Positions 12,861-34,558 of a DNA stretch of 37,277 bases are shown one piece after another. Location of the stretch: assembly GCA_016866785.1 (NCBI GenBank), contig VGLH01000024.1:1-37277 (forward strand), written 5' to 3'. Position 1 is the stretch's first letter. Each line of letters starts with the position of its first letter. This stretch comes from Candidatus Poribacteria bacterium. GTDB taxonomy: Bacteria; Poribacteria; WGA-4E; GCA-2687025. The notes beneath the pieces are model-generated. The model saw only the letters and a list, made by a program, of their open reading frames with translations, ran no database searches and was not told the origin of the DNA. The translations under genes were made by a program, and so were the position numbers.

Positions 12861-14765
12861 TCACGGATAGACGCGTATCGCGGTCGCCTTGATCATCGCC
12901 CAGAGCTGCGCCCCGGGCTCCAGGTGCAGATTGTCGGCGGCTTCGCGCGTTACCTCGGCGACCATCGGTACGCCCACGTCGATGCCAACCCGGACGCGGT
13001 CCACGAGAGCTAGACACTCCACCACGGTTGCATTAAATACGTTCTGGATCGACATGGTGGGCACATCCATCATGAGCGCGACCTCCGACGGGGCAAACGC
13101 CAGATGCGCGCGACCCGATAGCTCCGCAGCCAACACGTGGAACGTGACGGTTCCTGCCCTGGCTTCTTTGAGACCACTGCCTGGCGCGAGCTCGCACTCG
13201 TAGAAGTTGACGCCGATCAGCTCCGCCACAAAGGGGCTCCTCGGATGCGCCAACAGGTCCTCTTTGGAGCCGGATTGGATGATCTTGCCTTGGTCGAGAA
13301 CCAGGATGCGATCCGCAAGCACGAGGGCATCCAACGGGTCATGCACCACCACGATGGTCGGTAGTCCGACGACATGGAGGAACTCGCGGAGCTCGGCGCG
13401 CACATTCGTCGCCGTCGTCGGGTCGAGCGCCGAGAACGGCTCGTCGAGCAGCAGCGCCTTGGGTTCGGACGCCAAAGCCCTCGCGATGGCGACTCGCTGA
13501 CGCTGCCCACCTGACAGATCCGTCGCGCGTCGATCTTCCAAGCCAGACAGACCCAGCCGCTCGATCCACTCCATGGCGGAACGCTTGCCGCCCGGACGCA
13601 TACCGTACGCCACGTTGCCGCGAACGGTCCGATTCGGAAGCAGCGCGTATTCCTGGAACACGACGCCCATGCGCCGCAGATGGGTCGGAACCCAAACGCC
13701 ACGATCCGAGTCGAAGAGCACGGTTCCTCCTAGGGCGATCCTGCCGTGTTCCGGCATCAGCAGCCCTGAGAGAACGCTCAGTGCCGTCGTCTTCCCCGCT
13801 CCGCTGGGACCCACGATGGCAACGATCTCGCCAACGCGTACCGAGACATCCATCGAAAGTTCGATGTCCCCTGCCGAGACACGAAAGCTCGCGGTGAGGT
13901 CGCCCGACGCCGCTTCGTGGGTCGCGCGCCAACCGGTCACGTCATCTTCCTCGCGGGCTGGGCACAGCTCACGGTTCTGCCATGACCGGAGAAGCGCTCG
14001 GGTTCCCAGCAAGGAACCGACAGCCAGGACGACGGTGAGCGACGAGACGGCAAGCGCCGTTTCCAGGTCACTCTCCATGGCGGACATGACCGCCATCGTC
14101 AGCGTCTGCGTGCGACCCGGGATGTTGCCGGCGAACATCATCGTCGCGCCGAACTCCGACAGGGCTCGAGCCCAAGCCGATACGACGCCTGCGAGCAGCG
14201 CCGGTAGCGCAATCGGCAGTGAGACGGTGCGGAACGTACGCCATGGGGTCGCGCCAAGGGTCGACGCTGCCTGTTCGAGGCGGACGTCGACCGCCTCGAA
14301 CCCAGCGCAGGCGCTCCTCACGAACAGCGGGCTCGCGACAAACACCTGGGACATGACGACGGCGAGGGTGGTGAATCCGATCCGAATGCCGGCTACGTCA
14401 AGGTACCGTCCGATGAGTCCGTGACGCCCGAACACCAGCAACAGCGCGACCCCCGCGACGACTGGAGGGATTGCGACCGGGAGGTCGAGGAACGTATCGA
14501 GCCACGCCTTGCCTCGGAACGGCACGCGTGCCAAGAGGTGTGCCACCGGAAGACCGAGCACGATGCAGGTTGCCGACGCGATCGCCGTCGTCTTGAGGCT
14601 CAGCCAGAGGGCGCGCAGAGCCATCTCGGATGCCAAACGAGATAGCACATCCGGGCGAACTGCAAGCAGCAAGACCGCGATGGGAACGAGGAGGAAGAGG
14701 ATCAAGCCAGAAGATCCGAGCCACAGGAGCGTCGAGGACCCTATCTGCCGTCGACGGGCCGTCAT
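12861..14765 (-). CDS. modBC: Molybdate ABC transporter, fused permease-ATPase (ModB-ModC)
   Basis: One 634-residue chain that joins the usual ModB and ModC. Residues 1-260 are a permease with about six membrane helices and the EAA loop EQAASTLGATPWRTF (164-178). After a 30-residue linker comes the ATPase (about 297-520): Walker A GPSGAGKTT (319-327), signature LSGGQ (417-421), Walker B LLLDEP (437-442) and switch His475. The C-terminus (about 560-632) is a TOBE/Mop-like domain of the ModC kind. Permease-ATPase fusion in this order occurs in some lineages but is unusual. The ATG at 14765 overlaps the modA stop (ATGA), so the two are translationally coupled. Tungstate or sulfate cannot be excluded as substrate; ModA and the TOBE domain favour molybdate. 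Confidence 0.93.
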   Translation of the reverse strand: MTARRRQIGSSTLLWLGSSGLILFLLVPIAVLLLAVRPDVLSRLASEMALRALWLSLKTTAIASATCIVLGLPVAHLLARVPFRGKAWLDTFLDLPVAIPPVVAGVALLLVFGRHGLIGRYLDVAGIRIGFTTLAVVMSQVFVASPLFVRSACAGFEAVDVRLEQAASTLGATPWRTFRTVSLPIALPALLAGVVSAWARALSEFGATMMFAGNIPGRTQTLTMAVMSAMESDLETALAVSSLTVVLAVGSLLGTRALLRSWQNRELCPAREEDDVTGWRATHEAASGDLTASFRVSAGDIELSMDVSVRVGEIVAIVGPSGAGKTTALSVLSGLLMPEHGRIALGGTVLFDSDRGVWVPTHLRRMGVVFQEYALLPNRTVRGNVAYGMRPGGKRSAMEWIERLGLSGLEDRRATDLSGGQRQRVAIARALASEPKALLLDEPFSALDPTTATNVRAELREFLHVVGLPTIVVVHDPLDALVLADRILVLDQGKIIQSGSKEDLLAHPRSPFVAELIGVNFYECELAPGSGLKEARAGTVTFHVLAAELSGRAHLAFAPSEVALMMDVPTMSIQNVFNATVVECLALVDRVRVGIDVGVPMVAEVTREAADNLHLEPGAQLWAMIKATAIRVYP

Positions 14766-24313: not shown

Positions 24314-24419
24314 TCGGGCTTCGGCGCAGCCGCCTGAGCGCACGTTGAGCCCTGCCGCCGGTCGTGGTACAGAACGAGCGTCGGACGCGTGGTTCCCAAG
24401 ACGAACGGTCAGGATTCCC

Positions 24420-25565
24420 ATGAAGATCACGAAGGTCGAGACGCTCTGTCTGTCGCGTCCTCACGAGCCCAACGAGCAGTGGCGCACGGCGAAGTACCTG
24501 TGCGTCAAGGCGGACTGCGCCATCGTACGCATCCACACGGACGAAGGCGTCACTGGAGTCGGCGAAGCCAGCGCATACGGCGATCCCCCCAGCATTCGTT
24601 CGTGGGTGGACCACCTCGCTCCGGAGCTGGTCGGGAAGGACCCGCGCGATCCGCGCGTTGTGCCGCATCCGAACGGGCGTTCCCACGCCTACGACACGGC
24701 GGTAGCGGGCATCGACATCGCGCTCTGGGACATCCGTGGCAAACTCGAAGGCAAGCGGATCGCCCAGATGCTGACGGTGAAGCCTCTAGATCGTGTGCGT
24801 CTCTACGCGTCGGGCGGCTGTCGGTACGACTGGCGCGACCGACCGGAGCAGCTCATCGAGGAAGCCCTCGGCTACATCGCCGAAGGCTACACCGCGATGA
24901 AGTTCCGCATCGGAACCGACTGGTCGTGGTCGGGCGTGACCGTCGATCGGTTCCTGGGGCTCGTTCGCGAGCTTGCTCAGGCAGTGGGGAACCGAATGGA
25001 GCTCATGCTCGACGGCAATTGCCGCCTGGACGAGGACCAGGCGATGGCGATTGCGCGCGAGCTCGACCGATTGGGGTTCGCGTGGTTCGAGGAACCCATC
25101 CCGTGGAGCAACATCGACGGCTACGCGACGCTTTGCGCGGCTGTCGATATGCCGATCACCGGCGGCGAGAGCTTCACTACCCTGGAGCAGTTCCGACCGT
25201 TCTTCGAGAAGCGCGCGTATGACATCGTTCAGCAGGATGCCGGGCTCTGCGGCATCACGGAGACCATGCGCATCGCCGAAGCCGCGCACCGACACGGGAT
25301 CGACACGTGCCCGCACAGTTGGCACAACGGCTTGATGGCGATGGCGAACGCCCATTGCGTCGCGGCGCTGCCGAGACCGCGCGTGTTGGAGCTGAACCGC
25401 CATCAGGGACCTCTTCAGTGGGACATCCTGTCGCAGCGCCCCGACATCGAGGACGGATATCTCGTAATGCCGGGTGTTCCCGGTATCGGCGTCGACATCG
25501 CCGACCGGCTGGAGGAGCGGTTCCCGCACATCGCCGGAAGCTATGCGGTCGCCCTCGAGAACTGA
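24420..25565 (+). CDS. Mandelate racemase/muconate lactonizing enzyme family protein (sugar-acid dehydratase-like)
   Basis: A 381-residue enolase-superfamily enzyme starting at ATG 24420, with AGGA five bases upstream. Visible catalytic and metal residues are Lys161 in AMKFRIG (a KxR form of the usual KxK), metal ligands Asp198 (LMLDGN), Glu224 (WFEEP) and Glu250 (GGESF), and the Asp273-His299 general-acid/base pair (QQDAGLCG and CPHSWHN). This layout fits the mandelate racemase subgroup, most members of which dehydrate sugar acids to 2-keto-3-deoxy acids. The exact sugar is unknown. The RraA-type protein downstream could cleave the product. Its TGA stop lies inside the target-site duplication of a short inserted element. 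Confidence 0.92.
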   Translation: MKITKVETLCLSRPHEPNEQWRTAKYLCVKADCAIVRIHTDEGVTGVGEASAYGDPPSIRSWVDHLAPELVGKDPRDPRVVPHPNGRSHAYDTAVAGIDIALWDIRGKLEGKRIAQMLTVKPLDRVRLYASGGCRYDWRDRPEQLIEEALGYIAEGYTAMKFRIGTDWSWSGVTVDRFLGLVRELAQAVGNRMELMLDGNCRLDEDQAMAIARELDRLGFAWFEEPIPWSNIDGYATLCAAVDMPITGGESFTTLEQFRPFFEKRAYDIVQQDAGLCGITETMRIAEAAHRHGIDTCPHSWHNGLMAMANAHCVAALPRPRVLELNRHQGPLQWDILSQRPDIEDGYLVMPGVPGIGVDIADRLEERFPHIAGSYAVALEN

Positions 25566-25669
25566 GTGGTCTGTTTCGTAGGTATCCGTCGTGTCAACGG
25601 ACGCCGTGAAGGTAGGGGCGACGCGTCGCCCCTACGAATCGGAATGGGTCTACGAAACGCACCACTGAG
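25562..25669 (+). mobile_element. MITE-like element, copy 1, with CTGAG target duplication
   Basis: A 98-bp element (25567-25664) flanked by perfect 5-bp direct repeats CTGAG (25562-25566 and 25665-25669). Its ends are inverted repeats: TGGTCTGTTTCGTAG on the left, and CTACGAAACGCACCA on the right (13 of 15 matching when reversed). A perfect 24-bp palindrome with core GGGGCGACGCGTCGCCCC spans 25612-25635. It has no coding capacity. The left repeat includes the TGA stop of the upstream gene. About 38 bp next to its left end, and the TACGAATCG block, are shared with the second copy at 33288-33420. Confidence 0.85.
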
Positions 25670-32499: not shown

Positions 32500-33260
32500 A
32501 GAACACCCACGCGTCGGCGGTAGTCGTCATACGTCTCGTCGAATAGCTGCTGGGAGCGCTCCGCGCCGATGTGAACCGGGCTGGTGAGAACGAACGGCGG
32601 CTTGCCAGCCTGAGTGAGGAGTTCGGCGACCTCGGCTTTGATGGCGTTGGCGATGGCGCACGCCGCCAGCGTCGATACCGGCGACACGGGGTACTCAAGA
32701 CCTTCGATCCAGACAACGGCGTCACCGGGAGGTACGCAGTTGTCTACCACGATGTCGCACACCTCCGCCAGGTTCTTCCCGCCCGCGTGTCGCGTCCGCG
32801 ACGACGCGTTATTCGCCAAAGACGTGACGGCGATGGTCGTCATGCCGGTCTCGCGAGCTTCGAGCGCAATCTCGATGGGCACGATGTTCGTGCCGCCCGT
32901 CGAAAAGACGACCATCGCGTCGTCGGCTGTCAGCGCGAAGTTGCGCAGGATCCTGGACGCCAATCCCGGCACGTTCTCGATGAACATCGCCTGTCGCTGT
33001 CCGTTCGCGCCGACGACCTCGTGGTGGTAGGTCATCGACAGCTCAACGATCGGGTGGAACCCAGGAAAGCTGCCGTAGCGCGGGAACATCTCCTCAACGG
33101 GTATGCGCGAGTGACCTGCGCCGAAGAGGTGCACCAGGCGGTCGCGCAGGATGACGTCCGCGCAGACCTGAGCGGCGCGGCGGATGTTGTCCGCTTGTTC
33201 CGCGCGAATCCGTTGCACGACGCCGATGGCAGCATCGAAATAACGATCCATGGGGTACAT
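32490..33260 (-). CDS. SIS domain sugar-phosphate-binding protein (UPF0309-like)
   Basis: A protein of 256 residues when started at ATG 33260, which has AAGGAG ten bases upstream; ATG 33281 and ATG 33251 are alternatives. The SIS domain carries the phosphosugar-binding motifs GAGHS (47-51) and FSTGGTN (119-125), and the C-terminal NAIKAEVAELL helix of the family. Homologues bind or isomerise phosphosugars such as N-acetylglucosamine phosphates, or regulate their use. The catalytic role here is not certain. It lies downstream of corA on the same strand, from which the second short inserted element separates it. Confidence 0.87.
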   Translation of the reverse strand: MYPMDRYFDAAIGVVQRIRAEQADNIRRAAQVCADVILRDRLVHLFGAGHSRIPVEEMFPRYGSFPGFHPIVELSMTYHHEVVGANGQRQAMFIENVPGLASRILRNFALTADDAMVVFSTGGTNIVPIEIALEARETGMTTIAVTSLANNASSRTRHAGGKNLAEVCDIVVDNCVPPGDAVVWIEGLEYPVSPVSTLAACAIANAIKAEVAELLTQAGKPPFVLTSPVHIGAERSQQLFDETYDDYRRRVGVLYG

Positions 33261-33282
33261 GCGCGCTCTGCTCCTTGGCATA

Positions 33283-33425
33283 CTCAGCGGTCTGTTTCGT
33301 AGATATCCGTCGAATCAACGGACGGCGTAGAGTAGAGGCGACGCGGTGCGTCGCCCGTTTCACGACGAAGGCGACCCGACGGGTCGCCCCTACGAATCGT
33401 AACCGATTTTCGAAAAACCACTCAG
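33283..33425 (+). mobile_element. MITE-like element, copy 2, with CTCAG target duplication
   Basis: A 133-bp element (33288-33420) flanked by perfect 5-bp direct repeats CTCAG (33283-33287 and 33421-33425). Its left end CGGTCTGTTTCGTAG and the following TATCCGTCG...TCAACGGACG block match copy 1 at 25567. The right end, CGAAAAACCA, is more diverged. Two hairpins lie inside: GGCGACGC-GGT-GCGTCGCC and GGCGACCC-GAC-GGGTCGCC, where copy 1 has a single palindrome. The right duplication contains the TGA stop of corA, read on the minus strand as CTGAG. It has no coding capacity. Confidence 0.82.
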
Positions 33426-34558
33426 ACCCGTGTGCGGTCCCGTCGCCTCGCGCTTGCGCCGGTTCCGATCCATCCACGCCTTCGGAAGTAGTAGGTGAGT
33501 CCTCCGGCGACTGCCGCCATCAACGCGAGGGCGAACGGATATCCCCAGTACCACCGCAGCTCTGGCATGTTGAGCGGCGATGACTCGACGCTGAAGTTCA
33601 TCCCATACACGCCAGCGATGAACGAGAGCGGGATAAAGATCGTCGCGATGAGCGTCAGAACCGTCATCACTTCGCTCAATCGGTTGTTGACGCTCGAAAG
33701 ATAGAGGTCGTGCAGGCTCGTCGCGATATCGCGGTAGTTCTCGATCAGGTCGAGAAGCTGGACTGCGTGATCGTAGCAGTCGCGGAGGAAGACCCGCGTT
33801 TCCTCGGCGATGTGCGCGGTCGTGTCGCGCGATAGAGCGTGGACGACCTCTCGTTGGGGCCAGACGGCTCGCCGAAGCACTAACAGATCGTGACGCACAG
33901 CGTGGAGCTCCGTGACCGAAGCTTGGCTCGGGCGTTCGACGATGTCGTCCTCCAACCGTTCAAGCCGGTCTCCGAGGACCTCGATGACTGGGAAGAAGCC
34001 GTCGACGACCGCGTCGATGAGCGCGTAGGCGAGGTAGTCGGGACCCGACGACCGGATGGTCGGTCGTCCCGAGCGGATACGCTCCCTGACCGGATCAAAA
34101 TCGTCGCCGGGCCTTTCCTGGAACGTGAGGACGTAGTCACTGCCCAGGAACAGGCTGATCTGCTCGGTGCCAATCGCCTCCCCGACCGTCGCCACCCGCG
34201 CCACAACAAAATGGTGCTCCGCGTAGGGTTCGATCTTGGGGCGCTGATAGACGTTGACGACGTCCTCGAGCGCCAGCCGATGGAGCCCGAACGCATCGCC
34301 GACCGCTTGAAGCGTCGCCGCGTCTCCCAGACCAGCAACGTCGACCCACGTGACGCGATGGCGTCCGACCCAGCGTCGTAGGTCGTCGACGTCCTCGATG
34401 TCGCGCTCTTCGACGGCGTCGGGACCGAACGCGATCACGTGGATCCTCGGTGACGGCGCTGCCGGATCGATGGCGAGAGTGCCCGGCGGCGCGCCGGGCG
34501 ATGCGCGGCGGTGGACCCGTATCTCGGACCGTTTACGGTTCAGAGACGTTCTGCCCAA
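33422..34558 (-). CDS. corA: CorA family magnesium/cobalt transporter
   Basis: A 378-residue CorA-type divalent cation channel of the inner membrane. A large cytoplasmic domain (about 40-295) is followed by two membrane helices. The signature GMN occurs at 319-321 (AGVYGMNF) at the end of the first helix, and the second helix is YPFALALMAAVAGGLTYYF. A basic C-terminal tail follows. It starts at TTG 34558 with GGAG eight bases upstream. Magnesium is the default substrate, but cobalt, nickel or zinc transport is possible in this family. Its stop codon is shared with the target duplication of the adjacent short element. Confidence 0.93.
   Translation of the reverse strand: MGRTSLNRKRSEIRVHRRASPGAPPGTLAIDPAAPSPRIHVIAFGPDAVEERDIEDVDDLRRWVGRHRVTWVDVAGLGDAATLQAVGDAFGLHRLALEDVVNVYQRPKIEPYAEHHFVVARVATVGEAIGTEQISLFLGSDYVLTFQERPGDDFDPVRERIRSGRPTIRSSGPDYLAYALIDAVVDGFFPVIEVLGDRLERLEDDIVERPSQASVTELHAVRHDLLVLRRAVWPQREVVHALSRDTTAHIAEETRVFLRDCYDHAVQLLDLIENYRDIATSLHDLYLSSVNNRLSEVMTVLTLIATIFIPLSFIAGVYGMNFSVESSPLNMPELRWYWGYPFALALMAAVAGGLTYYFRRRGWIGTGASARRRDRTRV

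Follow-up and report, generated by a model that had tools for sequence, protein, structure and literature searches.

Two insertions at gene ends in the window

The window analysed here (the whole 37,277-nucleotide stretch of Candidatus Poribacteria contig VGLH01000024.1, contig C24 in our numbering) holds a mandelate racemase/enolase-superfamily (MR/MLE) gene and corA, and the stop codon of each lies in a five-base word flanking a short repeated element (Table 1). A sequence-only reading of the window had described these elements as two MITE-like copies with perfect duplications and the stop TGA in the gene-side word, and the window sequence and ORF table confirm this to the base for both the CTGAG and the CTCAG duplications. 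In alignment, the left terminal repeats of the two copies are near-identical, while the right ends are more diverged, copy 2 lacking 2 bp there. The core of copy 1 folds as a hairpin and has solo copies at other genomic places. No Rfam family was matched in the window. Searching with CorA brought up no close relative in the genome_contigs collection. Downstream of copy 2, an AAGGAG motif resembling a ribosome site lies in a SIS-domain gene (window positions 33255-33281), and because this motif falls inside the longest ORF, the gene probably starts at an ATG ~20 bp downstream of the called ORF start.

Table 1. Features of the window (contig C24) and location of the resident IS5-family element elsewhere in the genome.
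Feature	Position	Strand	Basis and remarks
Mandelate racemase/enolase-superfamily gene, stop in target word	24345..25565	+	Pfam MR_MLE_C 5.7e-55, MR_MLE_N 1.2e-15
Left target-site word CTGAG, copy 1	25562..25566	+	Sequence, ORF table, Pfam
Stop codon TGA of the MR/MLE-family gene, inside left CTGAG	25563-25565	+	Sequence, ORF table, Pfam
MITE copy 1, 98 bp	25567..25664	+	Sequence; family at ~20 genomic places
Left terminal repeat of copy 1, TGGTCTGTTTCGTAG	25567-25581	+	Sequence
REP-like core of copy 1, GTAGGGGCGACGCGTCGCCCCTAC	25612..25635	.	Perfect palindrome with GTAG head; matches on own strand and in reverse
Inverted partner repeat of copy 1, CTACGAAACGCACCA	25650-25664	+	Sequence
Right target-site word CTGAG, copy 1	25665..25669	+	Sequence
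Left target-site word CTCAG, copy 2	33283..33287	+	Sequence
MITE copy 2, 133 bp, REP pair in place of the single palindrome	33288..33420	+	Sequence, alignment with other copies
Inverted REP pair of copy 2, GTAGAGGCGACGCGGTGCGTCGCC ... GGCGACCCGACGGGTCGCCCCTAC	33332..33393	.	Sequence; related solo pair on C66
Right target-site word CTCAG, copy 2, holding corA stop TGA (33424-33422)	33421..33425	-	Sequence, ORF table, Pfam
corA, stop in target word	33422..34558	-	Pfam CorA, E 1.3e-63
Resident IS5-family element	C121, C11, C133, C51, C142, C179, C197, C60 (loci L206-L217)		Ends G[AT]GTCTATCTCAA at C-TNA-G

Copies of the element in the genome

The genome is available as a 4.35-Mb assembly of 291 contigs, from which copies were collected by BLAST, pattern and profile searches, each place then being inspected. 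In this way, we found 23 copies or remnants that retain one or both outer ends. When two mismatches were allowed, the pattern CTNAGTGGTNTNTTTCG matched the genome 23 times and its reversed control twice, which is beyond chance, and the profile search retrieved full-length copies with E values down to 2e-35. The exact pattern CTNAGNGGTCTGTTTCGTAG had no match in the genome_contigs collection. As is characteristic of MITEs, the elements are short (68-136 bp in copies with both ends known), lack coding capacity and are multicopy, and they carry terminal inverted repeats and a target-site duplication, the ends being imperfect and the words matching perfectly in seven copies. Identity between copies is ~72-85% in aligned stretches, and because of this divergence the family is considered old; several copies are decayed or truncated. 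Pattern and profile searches detected no copy among 84 other genomes of the phylum, and a pattern search of six genomes of the family gave matches in the window's genome only. With the element confined to this genome in these searches, orthologous empty sites are therefore not available for comparison.

Two of the copies (C91:13661-13802 and C187:35-174) have a common right flank and different left flanks, which suggests a segmental duplication or recombination between copies. At C8:11440-11520 (locus L155), ~17 bp past a gene stop, a GGTGTCGT...ACGACACC hairpin has a further copy in its loop and is apparently a split terminator.

Target word and length of the duplication

The words on the two sides are identical in all seven cleanly two-ended copies, being CTGAG/CTGAG in C24a and C103a, and CTCAG/CTCAG in C24b, C18, C21, C49b and C190. 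This supports the common CTNAG target with an equal word on both sides that had been proposed from the two window copies, and CTNAG duplications do occur in other copies of the family. The possibility that CTNAG is a mere part of the inverted repeat was rejected for the middle base, as it agrees as a direct repeat in 7/7 clean copies (P about 0.008). C19 also has CTCAG on both sides, with a degenerate left end, and the remaining copies are one-ended or have one or two word changes. Beyond CTNAG, the flanks show no consensus much above base composition. A duplication of 5 bp (CTNAG) is favoured by the altered words of C49a (CTGAC/CTAAC) and C52 (CTAGA/CTAAA), while C229 (GTGAG/CTGAG) favours one of 3 bp (TNA); C144 has CTCAG/ATCAG. 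TNA is contained in the duplicated CTNAG word, and the present copies are compatible with either length.

A REP nested in the MITE

The GGGGCGAC core had been put forward earlier as a search key for the family, and it does occur in MITE copies, but it belongs to a separate mobile repeat (REP) that was missed in that reading. The interior of the MITE, GTAGGGGCGAC...GTCGCCCCTAC, is a GTAG-type REP or an inverted REP pair, and this first REP also stands alone at several places (C14, C66, C67 and others). A second kind of REP, GTAGGGGCGGGTCTCAGACCCGCCCCTAC, is found solo at some two dozen places as well as inside the MITE copies C117, C52, C8 and C124. C190, on the other hand, is a 68-bp MITE without any core, which is also located at a stop. 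Since both solo REPs and this core-less copy exist, we are dealing with two nested mobile systems, a REP inside a MITE.

The only Y1_Tnp (RAYT-like) gene that was found is on C66 (a single Y1_Tnp match at 13865-14029, E 1.5e-6 as protein), and it is adjoined by a REP pair of the first kind (C66 13754-13832). Within this RAYT-like ORF the second REP (GTAGGGGCGGGTCTGAGACCCGCCCCTAC) is in frame and encodes VGAGLRPAPT, with the other REP pair lying 3' (C66:13820-14400, L156).

Copies at stop codons

At 12 of the 22 scorable copies (55%) a long ORF terminates in frame at the TGA of the gene-side word, so that the harmless landing at gene ends noted for the window pair is no fluke. These copies are C24a, C24b, C18, C76, C190, C103b, C117, C144, C119b, C229, C31 and C124, a count that takes in decayed words and includes C76, in which the right end is deleted and TCAG is retained. 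A thirteenth case is C49a, where a MazG-domain gene ends in TAG in another register of the CTAAC word. Pfam domains were recognised in eight of the 12 genes (MR/MLE twice, CorA, beta-eliminating lyase, NAD epimerase, GFO/IDH/MocA, PhyH and the NADH dehydrogenase 49-kDa subunit), and the stop of the last of these is native, because the Pfam profile reaches the final residue before it. The ten copies away from stops (C49b, C21, C103a, C111, C119a, C32, C91, C19, C52 and C8) are simply intergenic, including one in a hairpin loop, and we saw no recognisable gene whose body was disrupted by a copy. According to our reading of the start codons, C24b, C18 and C49b lie some 20-35 bp upstream of a start.

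The suggestion that the duplication restores the stop codon did not hold, as the gene-side word stays joined to the gene, which thus keeps its stop, and the second word is redundant. We likewise rejected that the stop is created by the insertion itself, since the gene runs without a break into the gene-side word and the domain of the NADH dehydrogenase 49-kDa subunit ends there naturally.

Background expectation

Every CTNAG site is a potential stop, because its TNA reads as TAA or TGA on one of the two strands. To set the number of copies at stops against a background, genes were called in 662 kb of the same genome by means of a three-periodic Markov model, which gave 551 genes, 92% coding sequence and 252 TGA, 244 TAG and 31 TAA stops. 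With the MITEs masked, the CTNAG sites in this sequence comprised 893 coding sites and 128 intergenic sites, and a further 35 coincided in register with a stop. Under the assumption that insertions are lost from coding sequence only, the expected share at stops is 35/163 (21%), compared with which the observed 12/22 is an excess (Fisher P 0.0018; odds ratio about 4), as are the 9/17 obtained with strict CTNAG copies only (P 0.0075). When harm is also assumed for insertions into the intergenic 50, 100 or 150 bp that precede a start, a filter applied to intergenic sites only and thus generous to the null, the expectation rises to 28, 34 and 40%, and the P value for 12/22 to 0.014, 0.064 and 0.16, respectively.

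The sequence-only reading had left open whether the elements are targeted to gene ends or selected there. An excess at stops is indeed present (12/22 against 21-40% expected), but it is modest, about 1.4-2.5 times the expectation, and its P value varies between 0.002 and 0.16 with the choice of harmless sites. It is weak evidence for targeting, because one strand of TNA always reads as a stop trinucleotide, because about 21% to 40% of CTNAG sites outside coding sequence, according to which intergenic sites are counted, are gene stops, and because ten copies are plainly intergenic. The excess is probably real and mostly explained by the target word and selection, although these may not be the whole story when 55% is compared with the 21% of the simplest null (P about 0.002).

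Candidate transposase

The genome harbours a resident multi-copy IS5-family element (NF033580, DUF4096 and DDE_Tnp_1) with the ends G[AT]G[TC]CTATCTCAA, also given as G[AT]G[TC]CTATCTC. Its flanks are C-TNA-G at 9/12 ends and [AT]-TNA-G at the other three. Many contigs terminate inside this element. The end of the MITE, (C-TNA-)GTGGTCTGTTTCG, resembles the resident end GTG-TCTATCTC and is not identical to it; comparing GTGGTCTGTTTC with the latter, the two are similar with a gap and substitutions. A transposase gene with the same ends as the MITE, which the earlier reading had expected to be worth looking for, was not among the PF01609 and PF13340 loci: the ends there do not match those of the MITE, and no autonomous element with the MITE's ends was detected near these loci in the fragmented assembly. 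With no autonomous element having the exact ends, the assignment of a transposase follows from the target type and the partial resemblance of the ends, and based on these we infer that the MITE was most likely moved by an IS5-family transposase of the IS1031-group type.

Origin of the insertions at stop codons

Taken together, we consider it probable that the elements are an old IS5-like MITE family carrying REPs, for which landing on stops is mostly a matter of target sequence and purifying selection, with a small unexplained excess. A transposase would recognise the ends GTGG(TCTG)TTTCGTAG and cut at C-TNA-G, on either side of TNA, and GTAG-type REPs, separately mobile through a RAYT-like transposase, would have entered the MITE and then been amplified with it. 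The target word brings in TNA, a stop trinucleotide on one strand. Insertions inside genes would be lost, because 92% of the genome is coding, while an insertion in which the cut straddles the gene's own stop would persist, because the stop remains attached to the gene.

That chance and word composition alone, with no selective filter, have placed the copies is hardly credible. CTNAG is common at stops here, and 27/35 stop-site words are CTGAG or CTCAG, but 84% of all CTNAG sites are within coding sequence (893/1,064); because most sites are coding and no copy was seen in gene bodies, some filter must act. The element, or its transposase, might instead actively target translation stops or gene 3' ends beyond the CTNAG word. 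The share at stops under the simplest expectation agrees with such targeting, and C49a adds a TAG stop inside its CTAAC word, but significance is lost (P 0.06-0.16) once sites 100-150 bp upstream of starts are regarded as harmful, ten copies are away from stops, and strongly conserved flanking bases are absent past CTNAG. The resident IS5-family element, which has the same target, is at a stop in 0/7 testable ends, which argues against a stop preference built into the target class, although CTAAG/CTTAG prevails among its words and the number of ends is small. We therefore regard active targeting as improbable, and a preference of the transposition machinery for stop codons, e.g., through termination coupling or a DNA feature of 3' ends, as more improbable still; if the latter were true, the element would be a self-taming one that inserts at gene ends without damage.

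A somewhat better, though still unlikely, alternative is that the element is retained as useful, its REP hairpins stabilising the 3' end of the upstream mRNA or terminating this mRNA, with positive selection on position. The strong folding potential of the two window copies (z -5 to -6 for copy 1 and -2.5 to -3.8 for copy 2) and a stop share above the null are in line with this. However, stabilisation would not require a location exactly at the stop, any place in the 3' untranslated region being sufficient, the 68-bp C190 occupies a stop despite having no core, and several copies are decayed or truncated.

Target word and purifying selection, the reading that we prefer, offer a simple route to harmless insertion, in which the target word contains a stop trinucleotide, the cut straddles the stop and the gene is left intact. 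In this way, an element that targets TNA can insert at a stop codon and do no damage, and the argument extends to every such element (the IS1031 group and PIF/Harbinger relatives). It predicts more landings on stop codons in dense genomes whose main stop matches the target word.

Comparison with known systems

In the literature searched, we found no insertion sequences or MITEs that target stop codons. The closest parallels are those of the target and of the nested repeat. The IS1031 group of IS5 duplicates TNA (PMC12016507). Its members and the MITE have short inverted ends that begin with G beside a TNA, which in the MITE may be duplicated by itself or within CTNAG. The MITE end differs by several bases from that of the resident IS, and, unlike in the IS1031 group, the C and G on either side show hardly any variation and may belong to the duplication. 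The same target, C-TNA-G, and the same ambiguity between a 3-bp TNA and a 5-bp CTNAG duplication have been described for NuwaII of the eukaryotic PHIS (PIF/Harbinger-ISL2EU-Spy) transposons (PMC4482050). These are large, two-ORF elements of eukaryotes, having the target logic alone in common with the MITE.

The core, for its part, resembles GTAG REPs/BIMEs in being a GTAG-headed imperfect palindrome that occurs in inverted pairs and as many solo copies, with a linked, adjoining Y1_Tnp (RAYT-like) gene on C66. In Anabaena variabilis, GTAG-15 REP dimers sit inside long palindromes, and the ends of GTAG REPs often provide a TAG stop to flanking ORFs (PMC3733652). Here, in contrast, the REP is enclosed by an element with ends and a target duplication of its own, and it is the target word that supplies the stop, a TGA, and not the REP with a TAG. 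With its REP, the MITE adds to the cases in which one mobile repeat is carried by another.
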